This document shows, piece by piece, positions 19,929-33,283 of a stretch of DNA of 34,974 nt (within the stretch, counting starts at the first letter, position 1; the number at the start of each line of letters is the position of its first letter). The notes beneath the pieces are model-generated. The model saw only the letters and a program-made list of their open reading frames with translations. It was not told the origin of the DNA and made no database searches. A program made the translations under genes and the position numbers. Source of the stretch: Opitutus sp. GAS368. Lineage in GTDB: Bacteria > Verrucomicrobiota > Verrucomicrobiia > Opitutales > Opitutaceae. The stretch is taken from positions 1-34,974 of the forward strand of contig CAMBLN010000007.1 of assembly GCA_945868215.1 (NCBI GenBank). The letters run 5' to 3'.

Positions 19929-20714
19929 ATGACCCGCGCCCTCGGCCACTACACGCTACGCATCGTCAATGAACTCGGTGATTTCACCTTGTTCACGACG
20001 CGCGCGTTCACGGCCGCCGTCGGTTCACGCAAACTCGGTCGCCGCGTGATCCGCGCGATTTACGAGCAAGGTGTCCGCTGTTTGCCGGTCATCGTGATCG
20101 TCGGCTTGTTCACCGGCCTCGTGCTCGGCCTTCAAGGTTATTACGTGCTCAACCGCTTCGGCTCCGAAGGCCTTCTAGGCACTCTGGTCTCGCTCACGCT
20201 CGTGCGCGAACTCGCCCCGGTGCTCGCCGCGTTGATGCTCGTGGGGCAGGCCGGTTCCGCGCTTGCGGCCGAGCTCGGCATCCAGCGCAACAGCGAGCAA
20301 ATCGACGCCCTCGAAACGATGGGGGCCAGCGTGCACGCCTATCTGATTTCGCCGCGTCTGATCGCCGCGCTGATCGTGTTTCCCATCCACACGGCGATCT
20401 TTGCGCTCGTCGGTCTCTACGGCGGTTATCTTTCCGGCTCCGTCCTCCTGAACCTCCAGCCGGGCGTGTATTGGTCGGCTGTTCACAACGCCGTGCGCGG
20501 CGGAGATATCCGCGAGTGTTTCACCAAGGCCGCCGTCTTCGGTCTGCTCACCATCGCGATCTGCGCCTACAACGGCTTCAACTCCCACCGCCGCCGCAGT
20601 TCCACCGGCGCGCGCGCGGTCAGTGCTTCGACGACCCGCGCCGTGGTCTTCTCCAGCATCACCGTGCTGGCGGCGGACTACATCATCACCTCGCTGCTGG
20701 TGAAAGGACCATGA
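19929..20714 (+). CDS. mlaE: MlaE-like ABC transporter permease (phospholipid transport)
   Basis: Architecture IVIVGLFTGLVLGLQGYYVLNRFGSEGLLGTLVSLTLVRELAPVLAALMLVGQAGSALAAELGIQRNSEQIDALETMG. Confidence 0.93.
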   Translation: MTRALGHYTLRIVNELGDFTLFTTRAFTAAVGSRKLGRRVIRAIYEQGVRCLPVIVIVGLFTGLVLGLQGYYVLNRFGSEGLLGTLVSLTLVRELAPVLAALMLVGQAGSALAAELGIQRNSEQIDALETMGASVHAYLISPRLIAALIVFPIHTAIFALVGLYGGYLSGSVLLNLQPGVYWSAVHNAVRGGDIRECFTKAAVFGLLTIAICAYNGFNSHRRRSSTGARAVSASTTRAVVFSSITVLAADYIITSLLVKGP

Positions 20715-21529
20715 GCACTCCCGCCACCACCTCCACGGATCTTTTTCTCGACGTTCGCGGCATCACCAAACGCTTCGGCGACAACACCGTGCTTGCCGGC
20801 GTCGATCTCGCCGTGCCGCGCGGCAGCGTCATCACCGTGCTCGGCAAGAGCGGCACCGGCAAATCCGTGTTCCTCAAATGCCTCGCCGGCATCGTGCGCC
20901 CCGACGCGGGCGAAATCCGTTTCGACGGGCATGTGCTCAACGCCGGCAACGCCGACGCGCGCGCCGAGTTCCGCCGCCGCTGCAGCTACCTTTTCCAGAG
21001 CAACGCGCTCCTCGACTCGCTCACCGCTCTGGAAAACGTCGCGCTCCCGCTGGAGCAGACCACGCAGATCCCCAACCGCGAAATCCGCGAACGCTCCCTC
21101 GAAGCGCTCCGCCAGCTCGACCTGGAAAAACATCGCGACCGTTTCCCCGGCCAACTCTCCGGCGGCATGCAGAAACGCCTCGCGCTCGCCCGCGCCATTG
21201 TCACGCGTCCGGAACTGGTGCTCTTCGACGAACCCACCGCGGGCCTCGATCCCCTGCGGCGCAACGCCGTGTTCGAGATGATCGTCAAATACCAGCGCCA
21301 GTTCGGGTTTACCGCCTTGCTCGTGACCCACGATCTGCCCGAAGCGCTCGCCGCCAGCGACCAGGTTGCGCTGCTCAATGGCGGACGCATGCAATTTCAG
21401 GGAACGCCCGAGGCCTTTAACGAGTCCGCCAACCCCATAGTCTGCGCCTTCCGCGACAGCGCGGGTGCCTTGAGGGACACCATTGCGGCTCTCCGCCGCG
21501 GAGAAATCATTCAATCGGAGGAAGACTAA
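20711..21529 (+). CDS. mlaF: MlaF-like ABC transporter ATP-binding protein
   Basis: Walker A GKSGTGKS, LSGGMQKRLALARAI signature, VLFDEPTAGLDP; start 20711 overlaps the mlaE stop (ATGA). Confidence 0.94.
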   Translation: MSTPATTSTDLFLDVRGITKRFGDNTVLAGVDLAVPRGSVITVLGKSGTGKSVFLKCLAGIVRPDAGEIRFDGHVLNAGNADARAEFRRRCSYLFQSNALLDSLTALENVALPLEQTTQIPNREIRERSLEALRQLDLEKHRDRFPGQLSGGMQKRLALARAIVTRPELVLFDEPTAGLDPLRRNAVFEMIVKYQRQFGFTALLVTHDLPEALAASDQVALLNGGRMQFQGTPEAFNESANPIVCAFRDSAGALRDTIAALRRGEIIQSEED

Positions 21530-21531
21530 TC

Positions 21532-22032
21532 ATGAAGCAACAATCCAAACTTGAGTTGATCGTCGGGGTATTTGTCCTCGCCGGTCTCGTCGCCGTGGCC
21601 TACCTCGCGCTGCGCATCGGCGCGGGTTCCCTGGTGGGTGGCGACACCTATACGCTTCAGGCGCGCTTCACCAATTCCGGCGGACTCAATCCCGGCAGCA
21701 ACGTGATCATCGCCGGTGTGCCCGTCGGCCGCGTTGATTCGGTGAAACTCAATCCCGCCGACTACAGTTCGCTCGTGCATTTCAGCGTGCGCAAAGACGT
21801 GCAGCTCCCCGTCGACACCATCGCCTCCATCCGCACCACCGGCCTCATCGGCGACAAATTCCTCGCGCTCGCCCCCGGCGGCGAAAGCGAATTCCTCCCC
21901 GCCGACGCCCTCATCACCGACACCGAATCGACCGTCGATTTGGAGTCGCTCATCAGCCGCTTTGCCTTTGGCAACGTGAACGATAAACCCAAGACATCCG
22001 AAGTCTCCGCGCCCGCCGCATCCCAGCCATGA
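21532..22032 (+). CDS. mlaD: MlaD-like MCE-domain protein
   Basis: N-terminal TM followed by MCE motif YTLQARFTNSGGLNPGSNVIIAGVPVGRVDSVKL...TTGLIGDKFLALAPGG. Confidence 0.92.
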   Translation: MKQQSKLELIVGVFVLAGLVAVAYLALRIGAGSLVGGDTYTLQARFTNSGGLNPGSNVIIAGVPVGRVDSVKLNPADYSSLVHFSVRKDVQLPVDTIASIRTTGLIGDKFLALAPGGESEFLPADALITDTESTVDLESLISRFAFGNVNDKPKTSEVSAPAASQP

Positions 22033-22637
22033 ACCTTAACGTCCTCAAATCCTTCGTCTGCGGCGCCGTGCTCACGCTCGCCGCCGCCGGTTCGCTCAAC
22101 GCCGTCGAACCCGAAGTGATGCTCAAGACTTCAGTCGATGAAGTCCTGGCCATCGCCTACGACGGACAAACCGCCACCACGCCGCTCTCGCAGCGCGTGC
22201 GCCCCTTGTTGGAAAAAAACTTCAACTTCGAGGCCATCACCCGCCGCGCCATCGGCCCCGGTTGGCGTCAGTTCACCCCCGAGCAGCAGGCGCGCACCGT
22301 CGCGCTGTTCACCGATGTCGTCATCCGCAGCTATGCCGACCGCTTCGAAATCGGCGAACGTCCGGGCATTACCTACGCCAAGTCGGTCGCCCCCGATCCC
22401 AAGCGCCCCGCGCTCCGCGAGCTCCCCACGACCATCGACTACGCCGGGAAAAAATACTCCGTCCTTTACCGCCTCGAGCAGGCCGGCGACAGCTGGCGCA
22501 TCTACGACGTCATTATTGAAGGCGTCAGCATGATTGCCAACTGGCGCGCCCAGCTCGACCCGATCTACCAGAAGAGCGGCGCGGCTGGCGTCATAGCTGC
22601 TCTTGAAAAAAACCTTTCCCAGACTCCCGCCAAATGA
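22029..22637 (+). CDS. mlaC: MlaC-like (Ttg2D family) phospholipid-binding periplasmic protein
   Basis: Signal peptide; VRPLLEKNFNFEAITRRAIGPGWRQFTPEQQARTVALFTDVVIRSYADRFE; VIIEGVSMIANWRAQLDPI; ATGA overlaps both neighbours. Confidence 0.92.
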   Translation: MNLNVLKSFVCGAVLTLAAAGSLNAVEPEVMLKTSVDEVLAIAYDGQTATTPLSQRVRPLLEKNFNFEAITRRAIGPGWRQFTPEQQARTVALFTDVVIRSYADRFEIGERPGITYAKSVAPDPKRPALRELPTTIDYAGKKYSVLYRLEQAGDSWRIYDVIIEGVSMIANWRAQLDPIYQKSGAAGVIAALEKNLSQTPAK

Positions 22638-23386
22638 AACCGAACATTCCCTTTTTCGCGCTGGTCGCCTGTATCACCGCGACCGCGGCGTTTGCCCAGA
22701 AAACGCCTTCCCAGCCCGATCCCGCCGTGGTCGATGAGATGGACGAATACGCCGTCGTGCAGATATCCGACCCCTTCGAGCCCGTGAACCGCGCGATCTT
22801 CGGCTTCAACGACGGACTCTACGATTACGTGTTCCGCCCCGTGTCGAAGGGCTACACCACCGTCGTGCCCAAGCCCGCGCGCCACGGCATCCGCAATTTT
22901 TTCGACAACATCAAATTCCCGATTCGTTTCGTGAACAGCGCGCTGCAGGGCAAGTTCAAGCGCGCGGGCCTTGAGACCGGCAAGTTCGCCGTCAACACCG
23001 TCGCCGGTCTCGGAGGCTTCATCCGCGTCTCCGACGACGTGCCCGCGCTCGCGCAGATTCCGCGCGAAGACACCGGCCAGACCTTCGGCGTATGGGGCAT
23101 CGGCAAGGGGCCCTACCTCGTCCTTCCGGTGTTCGGCCCTGGCACCGCCCGCGACACCGTTGGGTTTGTCGGCGATTATTTCCTTAATCCCCTCAACTGG
23201 AACCTGCGCGAGAACATCGAGTGGTATACCTGGGAGGTGGAGACCGGTGTGACCGTGGTCAATGTGGTCAACACCATCCCCGATCTGCTCGCCTCGTATG
23301 ATGCGCCCCGCAAGGACGCGATCGACCCCTACCTCGCGGTGCGCAACGCCTACGTGCAATACCGCGAGGCCGCGGTGAAGCAGTAA
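22634..23386 (+). CDS. mlaA: MlaA/VacJ-like outer-membrane lipid asymmetry protein
   Basis: DPFEPVNRAIFGFNDGLYDYVFRPVSKGYTTVVPKPARHGIRNFFDNIKFPIRFVNSALQGKFKRAGLETGKFAVNTVAGLGGF. Confidence 0.93.
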   Translation: MKPNIPFFALVACITATAAFAQKTPSQPDPAVVDEMDEYAVVQISDPFEPVNRAIFGFNDGLYDYVFRPVSKGYTTVVPKPARHGIRNFFDNIKFPIRFVNSALQGKFKRAGLETGKFAVNTVAGLGGFIRVSDDVPALAQIPREDTGQTFGVWGIGKGPYLVLPVFGPGTARDTVGFVGDYFLNPLNWNLRENIEWYTWEVETGVTVVNVVNTIPDLLASYDAPRKDAIDPYLAVRNAYVQYREAAVKQ

Positions 23387-25997: not shown

Positions 25998-26664
25998 TTG
26001 AAGCAACTGTATCAGTGCGGTAACCGGGCGGGCTGCGGAAGGTCGTGGGGGGGACCAGGAGGGCTATGTGCAGATTGGCAGAGGCGAGCAGCACGGAGGC
26101 GTCTTGATCGGGGGCGCGGTAGCCGAGTTCGATGCGCAGTCGGTGGACGCGGCGGCCGGGCGATGGGTGGCGGGCATGTAGGGCTCGCCCGCGTGGCAAT
26201 CGACCACGGCGACGCCATCGATGAACAGCGTTGCACCGCCGCGCGCGAGGGCGACGAAGACGTGGGGTTTGCCGGGATGGGCGGGGATCCAGTGCCACTC
26301 GCCGCCCCCGGCTTTTTTGACGGCTTCGGGGAGTTCGCCGTTGGCCCAGAGAACCGGCGCGCCGCCATCGAGCGGGTGGAGTGAGATCGTGCCCGGCAGC
26401 GAGGCCAGATCGACGGCGGGAATCGCGGGTGACCAGTCGAGGTCGGACCAGGACTTGGGCTGCAATTTTCCGATCTAGGCGAGCGTGCGGGTGGTGAGTT
26501 CGTCGAGGTTGGCGGGGGCGCGGATGCCGATGATGCCTGGGCCGACGAACACGCCCTCGCCGATGGGTTGACGCCAGCGTTCGGGAATGGCGTCGGCACC
26601 GAGGGCGAGGCCGAGGGTGGCCCCACGGTGGCGGCGGTGGCGCTGGGCTTAAGCCTGCAATCAA
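25998..26664 (-). pseudogene. Decayed 3' remnant of an ADP-ribosylglycohydrolase-like gene plus a following beta-sandwich-like ORF, with frameshifts
   Basis: Minus-strand pieces: SATAATVG / (frame change at GGGG) / ATLGLALGADAIPERWRQPIGEGVFVGPGIIGIRAPANLDELTTRTLA-stop (26475); then WSDLDWSPAIPAVDLASLPGTISLHPLDGGAPVLWANGELPEAVKKAGGGEWHWIPAHPGKPHVFVALARGGATLFIDGVAVVDCHAGEPYMPATHRP / (frame change) / RVHRLRIELGYRAPDQDASVLLASANLHIALLVPP. Confidence 0.65.
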
Positions 26665-26701
26665 CGCCGCTGGAGCGTGTATCCAACGATCAATACAATC
26701 G

Positions 26702-27168
26702 ATGGGACTGGCTTTTCAGAAATGCCTAGCTCGGCTATCGGCGCGTCGGGTTTATGATCGGGAAAAGTTTTCCGAACGGTTGGAGAACCGCTGGCTCGGA
26801 GCCTATCTGGGCGAGCAGGCGGATGTGCCGGCCGGCCGTCGTTTGCGACCGCTGATACTGGCTTCCGTGCTGCCGAAGGACCGCAATCCGATTATCGAGT
26901 CATGGCATCAACGCGAACGTTCGGATGTGGTGCTTTCTCCGTTGGGAACCGGCTTCCGGATCGGCCGGGAGTGGTAAACCTAACGAGGGCGGCGGGTGCG
27001 AGTGGATGCGCGGAGATTTTGCAGGATACGGCGCGCCTCGGCGAAATCGGAGTGGAGCGCGTGGTGTCACGTCTGCAGCATAATGATTTTGGACCGCTTT
27101 ATCGGATTCAAAACAGCTTGCTTGATGGCTAATGGCTGGACGACCCCTCTTTGCCACGGAAGACGTGA
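26702..27168 (+). pseudogene. Decayed C-terminal half of a LacI-family regulator (frameshift plus in-frame TAA)
   Basis: ENRWLGAYLGEQADVPAGRRLRPLILASVLPKDRNPIIESWHQRERSDVVLSPLGTGF / frame change ~26950 / RLPDRPGVVNLTRAAGASGCAEILQDTARLGEIGVERVVSRLQHNDFGPLYRIQNSLLDG-stop(27130)-WLDDPSLPRKT-stop(27166); the pattern resembles LacI C-termini. Confidence 0.7.
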
Positions 27169-27178
27169 GGTTGGTTGA

Positions 27179-27252
27179 TGGTGCGGTCGCCGGGAATCGA
27201 ACCCGGGACACCTACTTGGAAGGAAGGAGTTTTACCTCTAAACTACGACCGC
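27179..27252 (-). tRNA. tRNA-Gly (anticodon TCC), CCA encoded
   Basis: Minus strand GCGGTCGTAGTTTAGAGGTAAAACTCCTTCCTTCCAAGTAGGTGTCCCGGGTTCGATTCCCGGCGACCGCACCA; acceptor GCGGTCG/CGACCGC pairs, T-arm CCGGGTTCGATTCCCGG, anticodon loop CTTCCAA. Confidence 0.95.
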
Positions 27253-27410
27253 GTTACATCCGGCGCAGAGCTTCAACAGGTGTTCGGGAGGGTCAAGCCT
27301 TGGCTTCCGAAGGCGTCGTCGGGCTCCGTGTTTTCTCAGGGGTTTTTTACGGTATACGAAGGGAAATGGGGTTGCGAGCAGGGGAGCGTCTCGTTTTTGT
27401 TGGCGGCGAA

Positions 27411-28595
27411 ATGGCTTTTATCACTTCCGCACCTGCAGGTCAGAGCACGGTGGTTCGTTCCGCGGCTACACCAGCTCAGAAAGGACAGGGATTCAAGGCG
27501 GCCCAGGCACTGGCCAAGCAAAAGGCGCTCGAGAAAAAATCACTTCGTTACAAGCTGCCGTTGGGTGAACTGGCTCTTTTTACGCAGCAGCTCGCTTCCC
27601 TCTTGAATGCCGGTTTGCCCTTGGTGCAATGCCTGGAGGCTTTGCAGGACCAGACGGAGGATCCGGTTTTTCGCATCATCATTCGCGATGTGCGCATCGA
27701 TATCTCGGCGGGTAATTCTTTTTCCTCTGCGGTCAAAAAATTCCCACGCGCATTCAACTCCCTGTTTACATCGATGATCGAGGCCGGTGAAGCCTCGGGT
27801 GCGTTGGCTGAAATTCTGAGCAAGGTCGCGGTTTATTTCGAGTCCACCGTAAAACTCACAAAGAAGGTCAAGTCGGCGATGACCTACCCGATTGCAGTCA
27901 TTGGTCTGGCGGTGGCCTTGGTTAACGTGCTGCTGATTTTCGTGATTCCAGTATTCGCCGAGATGTTTGCGGATTTCGGTGCAAAGCTTCCGGCACCGAC
28001 CCAGATGCTGATCGATTTAAGCGATTTCTTAAAAGCGAATTTCTTTTACCTGCTGGCGGCGGCTGGCGCGGCTTACTGGATTTTCATGAGGTTCATTTCC
28101 ACTCCGCGTGGACGCCGGATGAAAGATCTCGGATTGGTGCGCGCACCGATTTTCGGCTCGCTTGTTCATAAGATCGCTCTGTCCCGTTTCTGCCGCACCT
28201 ACGCCACGCTCATGCGTTCCGGCGTCCCGATTTTGCGCACGTTGGAAATCGTGTCATCGGCCAGCAACAAGGTTCAGATCGAGGATGCTTGTGTGGAGAT
28301 TGCCAAACATGTGAGCCAGGGCGGACAAGTTTCCGACATCCTCGCGATCAATACGTTTTTTCCGCCTATGATGAAGCACATGGTAAAGGCCGGTGAGGCG
28401 ACGGGTAATGTGGATGGTATGATGAACAAGATCGCCGACTTCTATGATACTGAAAGCGAAGCCACCGTGGCGTCGCTGACCTCGCTTATTGAGCCCATGC
28501 TCATCGTGTTTCTCGGTGTGGTGGTTGGCGGCATTGTGATGGCGATGTTCCTTCCGATCTTCCAACTGGGCGCAGTTGCCGGTGGTGTGCAGTAG
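27411..28595 (+). CDS. Type IV pilus assembly / type II secretion inner membrane protein (PilC/GspF family)
   Basis: LALFTQQLASLLNAGLPLVQCLEALQDQTEDP...SGALAEILSKVAVYFE...SRFCRTYATLMRSGVPILRTLEIV...FFPPMMKHMVKAGEATGNVDGMM. ORF track start (27132) runs through the tRNA; ATG 27411 is preferred. Confidence 0.94.
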   Translation: MAFITSAPAGQSTVVRSAATPAQKGQGFKAAQALAKQKALEKKSLRYKLPLGELALFTQQLASLLNAGLPLVQCLEALQDQTEDPVFRIIIRDVRIDISAGNSFSSAVKKFPRAFNSLFTSMIEAGEASGALAEILSKVAVYFESTVKLTKKVKSAMTYPIAVIGLAVALVNVLLIFVIPVFAEMFADFGAKLPAPTQMLIDLSDFLKANFFYLLAAAGAAYWIFMRFISTPRGRRMKDLGLVRAPIFGSLVHKIALSRFCRTYATLMRSGVPILRTLEIVSSASNKVQIEDACVEIAKHVSQGGQVSDILAINTFFPPMMKHMVKAGEATGNVDGMMNKIADFYDTESEATVASLTSLIEPMLIVFLGVVVGGIVMAMFLPIFQLGAVAGGVQ

Positions 28596-28647: not shown

Positions 28648-29907
28648 ATGCCTTCTGTTCTTATCGTCGACGACCTCCTCTCCATCCACGAAATGCTGGA
28701 TGCGGTGATTCAGCCAACGGGCTTTATCACCGCGTTTGCAACGGATGGTGAAAAGGCGCTCGCCCGCTACAAGATCGAGAAATTCGATCTCGTTCTCGCG
28801 GATATCGACATGAAGCCGATGGACGGAATCACGTTGCTCAAGCAACTCAAGGTTTACGATCCCAGCGCGGTGATCGTCATCATGACGGCATATGCGAGCA
28901 CCGAGAGCGCGATTCAGGCGCTAAAGTTCGGCGCGTTCGATTACATGCAGAAACCGTTCCGCGTGGATGAACTCATCGCCACGTTGAAGCGCGGACTCGA
29001 GTTCAAGCAATTCCATGCCGAGCGGGCCAACACCTCCGCGATGCCCGTCATCAAGGCTGCGGATGTCGATAGCCGTCTGGTGGGTCAGAGTGCGGTCAAC
29101 AAGCGCCTCGTCCAGCAGGTCAAAAAACTCGCCACGGTGCGCACCCCCGTCCTGTTGCAGGGCGAGAGCGGCACCGGTCGCACCACGGTAGCGGAAATTC
29201 TCCATGCAGGCAGCGCCTCGGCCGAGGCCCCCCTCGTTCGTATCGATTGTGCGTTGAGCTCCGATGGCGAGTTTCGTGAGGGATTGCTTGGGCACAACGG
29301 CACCGGTGGCGTTTGGGTGGAAAAAGCCCGAGGTGGCACCCTTTTACTGCAGAATCTCCACAATCTTGAGCTGTCCACCCAACAGGAGCTTGTCGGCGTG
29401 TTACGCAATACCGCGCATGGCTTCCGGTTGATCTGCACGACGACCGAGGATCTTGAAAAGCTGACCGACGACGGGCGGTTTAACGACGAATTGTTTTATC
29501 GGGTGGCATCCCTTCCCGTGGTGCTTTCCCCGCTGCGCGACCGGTTGGATGATATTCCGCTGCTGGTCCGGTATTTTCTGGGGACCGCTTCGAATCCTGC
29601 GTTCGACGCCAATCTCATCGAGTTCACCGAAGATGCGATCAATACCCTGCAAGCCTACCATTGGCCGGGTAATTTATCCGAGATCGGACAACTCGTCACC
29701 AAGATCGCCGCGACCACCACGACGCGAGTGGTCACATCGGAGCAACTTCCCCTGCGCCTCAAGGAAGTCAAAGACTGGCCCAAGCTCGCCGATTACCTTG
29801 CAGGTCAGGAACGCCAATACATCGAGATGGTTCTCAATGCATGTCGCGGCGACAAAATCTCGGCCGCCAAGGTGCTCGGCGTGGATATGGCCCGCCTTTT
29901 GAAGTAA
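28648..29907 (+). CDS. NtrC-like response regulator: intact receiver, degenerate sigma54-activator AAA+ domain, short Fis-like C-terminus
   Basis: Receiver [34 protein letters not shown]+ [56 protein letters not shown]; end [23 protein letters not shown]. Confidence 0.9.

Positions 29908-30034: not shown

Positions 30035-33283
<3,249 letters not shown>

Follow-up and report, generated by a model that had tools for sequence, protein, structure and literature searches.

A degenerate NtrC-type response regulator linked to PilC in Opitutaceae

Described regulators and the proposed role of the pilC-linked protein

The sigma54 bEBPs of the NtrC family, which include NtrC, NtrX, NtrC1, ZraR and PilR, are built in the order receiver, AAA+ domain, lid and Fis-type tail. 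GAFTGA mutants are mostly unable to activate transcription (PMC7175178), and in PspF the pre-sensor-I insertion is needed for sigma54 engagement (PMC2745333). In the PilR/PilS system, an NtrC-type regulator is tied to pilus genes. The sigma54-contact L1 loop has been lost in Rhodobacter and Caulobacter NtrC as well as in VpsR/VspR, and GAFTGA-less sigma70 regulators keep a DNA-binding domain. The Caulobacter and Rhodobacter NtrC proteins, which are GAFTGA-less, have a sigma70-type DNA-binding role (PMC10274813). EmvR, a receiver-only regulator, attaches to the pilus ATPase PilB and reduces PilB activity by about 40%, and EmvR function is lost when D15, D59 or T87 is replaced (PMC11973254). In addition, EpsW-P acts post-translationally on a glycosyltransferase (PMC12802240).

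Here we describe a response regulator from a 34,974-nucleotide stretch of DNA (contig CAMBLN010000007.1, the whole of which is referred to as the window) of an Opitutaceae genome whose nearest named relative is Rariglobus. The protein has the domain order of the NtrC-family bEBPs, which are its best sequence and structure matches, but it is devoid of the GAFTGA loop, the pre-sensor-I loop, Walker B, sensors I and II and the first Arg finger, and its HTH is truncated. It shares the loss of the sigma54-contact loop with the GAFTGA-less DNA-binding regulators; unlike these, it has also lost hydrolysis residues and the recognition helix, and its gene is locked to pilC. Like EmvR acting on PilB, EpsW acting on EpsZ and CheY, it combines an intact phospho-switch with the lack of a plausible DNA or sigma54 output. 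In contrast to receiver-only regulators, however, it is not a single-domain protein (419 residues with the AAA+ domain), most members of its family keep a full-length, predicted-folded pseudo-AAA+, and its protein partner is hypothetical. It also differs from PilR/PilS, since its motifs predict no sigma54 output, its PilC is a stand-alone paralogue rather than part of a pil cluster, and no PilS-type sensor kinase was found among the neighbouring genes scanned in the window.

The intact phospho-switch, the lost hydrolysis, sigma54 and recognition-helix parts and the association with PilC and GspE are together best read as marks of a protein-contact regulator. With a rough probability of 60%, the protein is an NtrC-derived pseudo-ATPase response regulator without sigma54 activation, which acts by phosphorylation and probably by protein contact on a PilC/GspE machine. 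From sequence, we infer that its ATPase, sigma54 and DNA-binding activities are lost, and we put forward direct binding to PilC or GspE, as well as the direction of control, as hypotheses only. The best family matches would annotate the gene as a sigma54-dependent Fis-family regulator in many genomes, which is probably functionally wrong. The family forms a natural series that shows a two-component transcription factor losing its catalysis and its contacts with sigma54 and DNA, with the phospho-switch staying fixed.

Gene neighbourhood and motifs of the regulator

The initial annotation had placed the regulator directly downstream of a PilC/GspF gene, and this link turned out to be strong, with pilC upstream wherever the sequence can be read, although the start of the listed pilC ORF had to be corrected. 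As listed, this ORF begins at 27132 and reads through the opposite-strand tRNA-Gly (Table 1), therefore the true start of pilC is probably near 27411, and the first 93 residues of the listed ORF (27132-27410) are probably not real protein. No promoter or terminator signal above chance level emerged from a scan of the gap that separates pilC from the regulator. About 1 kb between an aldo/keto reductase gene and pilC (26012-27130) holds no recognised gene, and the two ORFs tested there have no Pfam match. The window also carries a single-run Mla-type lipid transport cluster (MlaE, ABC ATPase, MlaD, MlaC and MlaA) at 19929-23386. In the regulator, Pfam detects Response_reg (4e-26), Sigma54_activat (7e-24), AAA_lid_14 (3e-15) and HTH_8 (positions 5-30 of 42), and the NCBIfam cut-offs lie far above its score, which is 242 bits at best where 714 are required.

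Table 1. Features of the regulator locus and their positions in the window.
Feature	Position	Strand	Remarks
tRNA-Gly(TCC)	27179..27252	-	inside the longer pilC ORF listed from 27132
PilC/GspF (T2SSF) platform protein, orphan paralogue	27411..28595	+	Pfam T2SSF; 52 bp upstream of regulator
PilC-linked degenerate NtrC-type response regulator	28648..29907	+	419 aa, ATG to TAA
Receiver domain, residues 1-116	28648..28995	+	Pfam Response_reg; D8, D9, D52, T80, K102 intact
Degenerate AAA+ (Sigma54_activat + lid), residues 143-375	29074..29772	+	predicted fold intact
Walker A GESGTGRTT, K to R at residue 178	29161..29187	+	R common to a clade of nine rows
D200 at switch-Asn position	29245..29247	+	invariant in regulator family; canonical paralogues have N in 3/4, H in 1/4
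L1 loop deletion site (16 residues)	29290..29337	+	GAFTGA loop of the paralogues is 8 residues longer
Walker B acidic pair replaced by Q235-N236 (GGTLLLQNL)	29350..29355	+	from alignment of orthologues
Pre-sensor-I (L2) deletion junction	29407..29412	+	11 residues missing between N254 and T255; from alignment with same-genome canonical paralogues
Sensor I position, T266 instead of N	29443..29445	+	N in 10/95 orthologues
First Arg-finger position, N279 instead of R	29482..29484	+	R in 0/95 orthologues
Sensor II position, S344 instead of R	29677..29679	+	R in 0/95 orthologues
Fis-type tail, truncated to two helices and about one turn of the recognition helix	29806..29904	+	HTH_8 5-30/42; predicted helices
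carB	30035..33283	+	usual downstream neighbour of regulator; marks synteny, considered to lie outside the system

Related genomes and GTDB species genomes were searched for orthologues, which yielded the window's protein and 94 further distinct sequences, almost all of them from Opitutaceae. The phosphorylation residues of the receiver, which had been noted as kept in the window, are essentially invariant across this set: where aligned, D8/D9 are found in 92 of 92 sequences, D52 in 93 of 93, K102 in 95 of 95 and T80 in 93 of 94, with S in the remaining one.

The initial annotation listed several lesions in the AAA+ domain, and among those whose fixation across the clade it had proposed to test, the loss of GAFTGA and the replacement of the Walker B DE pair hold as such, while the Walker A change from K to R does not. 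The GAFTGA L1 loop is missing from the window's protein and from every orthologue aligned, as a loop deletion that the orthologues share. The Walker B pair is indeed Gln-Asn in the window, but the family is mostly Q-H (95 orthologues: Q in 74 and D in 1 at the D position; H in 59, N in 22 and E in 2 at the E position), and DE is lost almost everywhere. The Walker A Arg is likewise real in the window, yet it is not a family feature, since the position is occupied by K in 79, R in 11 and H in 5 of the 95 orthologues. The tree of orthologues suggests about four losses of this Lys, and the nine rows that share the window's Arg have sister rows with K. The K-to-R change was therefore rejected as a defining lesion, being late, confined in this form to one subclade, and repeated. 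The glycines of Walker A persist in 94-95 of the 95 sequences. Retention of Walker A in most relatives means that nucleotide binding may matter, and the P-loop may, as far as its residues tell, still be nucleotide-binding in most of them.

The first Arg of the FREDLYYR-like motif is Asn, as had been described; this requires a correction, however, in that the second Arg of the motif (R285, the position of PspF R168 and NtrC1 R299) is kept in 94 of 95 orthologues. R297 is kept in 93 of 95. Three further changes were absent from the initial annotation, namely the 11-residue L2 deletion, the loss of the sensor-I Asn and the loss of the sensor-II Arg. Structure prediction, which had been recommended as a check, gave an intact AAA+ fold (AlphaFold, mean pLDDT 82.9). 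In a Foldseek search, NtrX was the best full-length match of the regulator model, the AAA+ domains of FleQ, NtrC1 and PspF matched the predicted fold with a TM of about 0.75-0.80 by target length, and VpsR and FleQ were among the best solved-structure matches.

The resemblance to the FleQ and VpsR structures, together with the Walker A glycines and Lys that persist despite the loss of Walker B, would suit a nucleotide or c-di-GMP sensor, in which the pseudo-AAA+ would bind ATP or c-di-GMP but not hydrolyse it, and would join the receiver in integrating two signals for the PilC/GspE machine. The co-occurring GspE paralogues have MshEN domains, a c-di-GMP-binding domain type, which also fits such a sensor. 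The Lys has been lost about four times, however, with the window's clade included, so binding is not required everywhere, and we consider a sensor of this kind unlikely. The predicted fold and the two retained arginines are also compatible with a trans-acting modulator, a phospho-regulated dominant negative whose degenerate AAA+ subunit mixes into canonical bEBP hexamers or sequesters them, and the genome does encode rpoN and at least four canonical NtrC paralogues. Such a modulator is nevertheless quite unlikely, since it does not account for the constant pilC linkage, for the loss of the gene together with PilC and GspE or for an AAA-less form found in one genome (G020, see below), and identity to the paralogues is only about 30%.

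The C-terminal Fis-like helix had been described as ending abruptly, and the HTH is in fact cut within the recognition helix, also in the scored orthologues. In the latter, 7-12 residues follow AAxxL, compared to 17-30 in the paralogues in which the motif was found. The tail helices are predicted at residues 388-398, 403-410 and 414-418, and the tail is wholly missing in two members from other families (loci L140 and L142). This region is central to the main rival of the protein-contact reading, according to which the protein is a sigma70-type transcription regulator that is now without GAFTGA yet retains DNA binding, and regulates genes such as pilC or pilins without sigma54 in the manner of Rhodobacter NtrC, Caulobacter NtrC and VpsR/VspR. 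GAFTGA-less bEBPs at sigma70 promoters are known, an 8-residue L1 deletion occurs in Caulobacter NtrC (PMC10274813), VpsR and FleQ appear among the best solved-structure matches, and a two-helix Fis remnant remains. On the other hand, Caulobacter NtrC requires its Walker A and B residues (PMC10274813), whereas Walker B is lost here almost everywhere, the recognition helix is short in the scored orthologues or the whole tail is gone, and the pre-sensor-I loop is deleted as well. A DNA-binding role of the sigma70 type is thus possible but doubtful.

Age of the losses and selection on the gene

Loss of the sigma54 and hydrolysis motifs extends over the window's genus and many other Opitutaceae genera, and the regulator, degenerate in the same form, also follows pilC in four more families belonging to the order (f5, f8, f9 and f24). 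In a class-wide sample of 237 genomes, strong matches were obtained only in the window's family, plus two weak ones with about 35% identity, at a score threshold that would miss divergent forms of the regulator. The pilC loci of the order carry a degenerate regulator, a divergent receiver or nothing recognised, and no canonical GAFTGA-bearing regulator was found beside pilC among them. For this reason, a canonical pilC-adjoining regulator in sister families was rejected as the ancestral state. Orthologues with canonical motifs in sister species, which the initial annotation had named as evidence of recent decay, were looked for and not found. The loss of the ATPase, of the sigma54-contact loops and of the DNA-binding helix is one that took place in a common ancestor of Opitutaceae and related families. 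The divergent receiver is a stand-alone protein encoded directly behind pilC in another family (L145 2653-3054, genome G073) and possibly represents an independent recruitment.

The gene is under clear purifying selection. By NG86 over 13 close relatives, the median dN/dS values are 0.04 (receiver), 0.06 (AAA+), 0.08 (tail) and 0.23 (linker). Synonymous sites approach saturation in this set, but the least saturated pair agrees, with 0.047 for AAA+ at a dS of 0.66. The expectation of a dN/dS below 1 among the orthologues is therefore borne out at about 0.06, and relaxed selection on the AAA+ domain was not found, even though this domain changes more quickly than its counterpart in a canonical paralogue. 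The latter, an NtrC paralogue from the same genus that served as a control, has GESGTGK, GAFTGA and GTLFLDE in 11 of 11 readable copies. Mean identity of receiver and AAA+ is 0.92 and 0.90 in this paralogue, compared to 0.93 and 0.82 in the pilC-linked regulator, which suggests that constraint on the receiver matches that in a working regulator, whereas the constraint on AAA+ is looser, though the domain is clearly selected.

The faster evolution of AAA+ is what might be expected of a slowly decaying gene that is carried along in a stable pilC-carB neighbourhood, and the gene can evidently be lost, as a whole domain is deleted in G020 and the copy in G255 looks broken. Slow decay is nevertheless highly improbable, as the ORFs are intact in essentially all orthologues, dN/dS is low overall, the receiver active-site residues are kept over at least five families, and the losses form a shared pattern with no scattered stops. 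Recent decay is ruled out by the conserved losses, the dN/dS and the intact ORFs. The shared losses and the dN/dS support the retained non-ATPase role, rather than decay, that had been proposed from the window; the adaptor role proposed along with it is one that we infer.

The G020 gene (L222 3323-3853) encodes a 177-aa protein between pilC and carB, in which a short linker joins an intact receiver to what is left of the Fis tail. AAA+ is absent, and the protein is close to a receiver-only architecture. It is known from one genome, the sole genome of its genus. The G255 copy (L250 2863-3483), also seen in one genome, lies beside pilC and appears to have decayed, with the receiver Thr changed, most of AAA+ missing and no start found.

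Linkage to pilC and co-occurrence with GspE-type ATPases

At every orthologous locus whose upstream side can be read, pilC lies directly upstream of the regulator on the same strand; in the exceptions, the side is made unreadable by contig ends or, in G019, by a run of N. Upstream of pilC, the gene content differs between genomes, and a conserved partner there was therefore rejected. A regulator-free version of the neighbourhood also exists, in which pilC and carB adjoin (L133), and PilC orthologues are present in many families without such a regulator behind them. The regulator is thus found with PilC, while PilC is often found without the regulator, which suggests that PilC is independent of it and that the regulator resembles an accessory of the machine. 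The PilC encoded in the window is a paralogue, with 41% identity, of the PilC on contig C90, which occurs with PilB/PilT-type ATPases.

Two orphan GspE-type ATPases are encoded on other contigs, so a clustering of GspE with pilC was rejected. Presence of the PilC orthologue and of the C109-type GspE agrees in 25 of 26 Opitutaceae genomes with a completeness of at least 90% (p 1e-5), and that of PilC and the regulator in 24 of the same 26 (p 9e-5). Outside Opitutaceae, 49 genomes were compared, and the presence of PilC and GspE matches in 45 of them (p 2e-9), or in 47 when either GspE paralogue is counted (p 6e-12). These p values come from Fisher tests on hand-drawn tables in which shared ancestry is ignored.

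In the protein-contact reading, a sensor kinase encoded elsewhere would most likely phosphorylate D52 of the regulator, and the folded AAA+ domain would serve the receiver as a scaffold, a dimerisation body or a nucleotide-sensing body. The phosphorylated regulator would then change its binding to a partner in a PilC/GspE-type machine, and this altered binding would act among the proteins themselves to raise or lower pilus or secretion assembly. Against this reading, adjacency and co-occurrence would fit a regulator of pilC expression as well, and the agreement of the regulator and PilC trees beyond CarB is modest (partial r 0.45). Moreover, PilC occurs in many families that have no regulator, Walker A is kept in most relatives, and the short G020 form comes from a single genome. 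A more far-reaching proposal, which is tentative, holds that an activator was converted in the ancestor of several Verrucomicrobiota families into a dedicated phospho-controlled subunit of the PilC/GspE machine, whose pseudo-AAA+ body would gate assembly on the platform or on the ATPase hexamer. Relatives would have shed the catalytic residues and the sigma54 loops, after which certain lineages would have dropped the DNA-binding tail or AAA+ altogether.

The PilC paralogue and the two orphan ATPases mark out an unlinked Verrucomicrobiota module for functional testing. One ATPase (G000:C109, L217 2792-4495) is a 568-aa protein with MshEN and T2SSE, and the other (G000:C146, L218 3215-5395) is a 727-aa protein with GAF, MshEN and T2SSE; the neighbours of both genes are unrelated.
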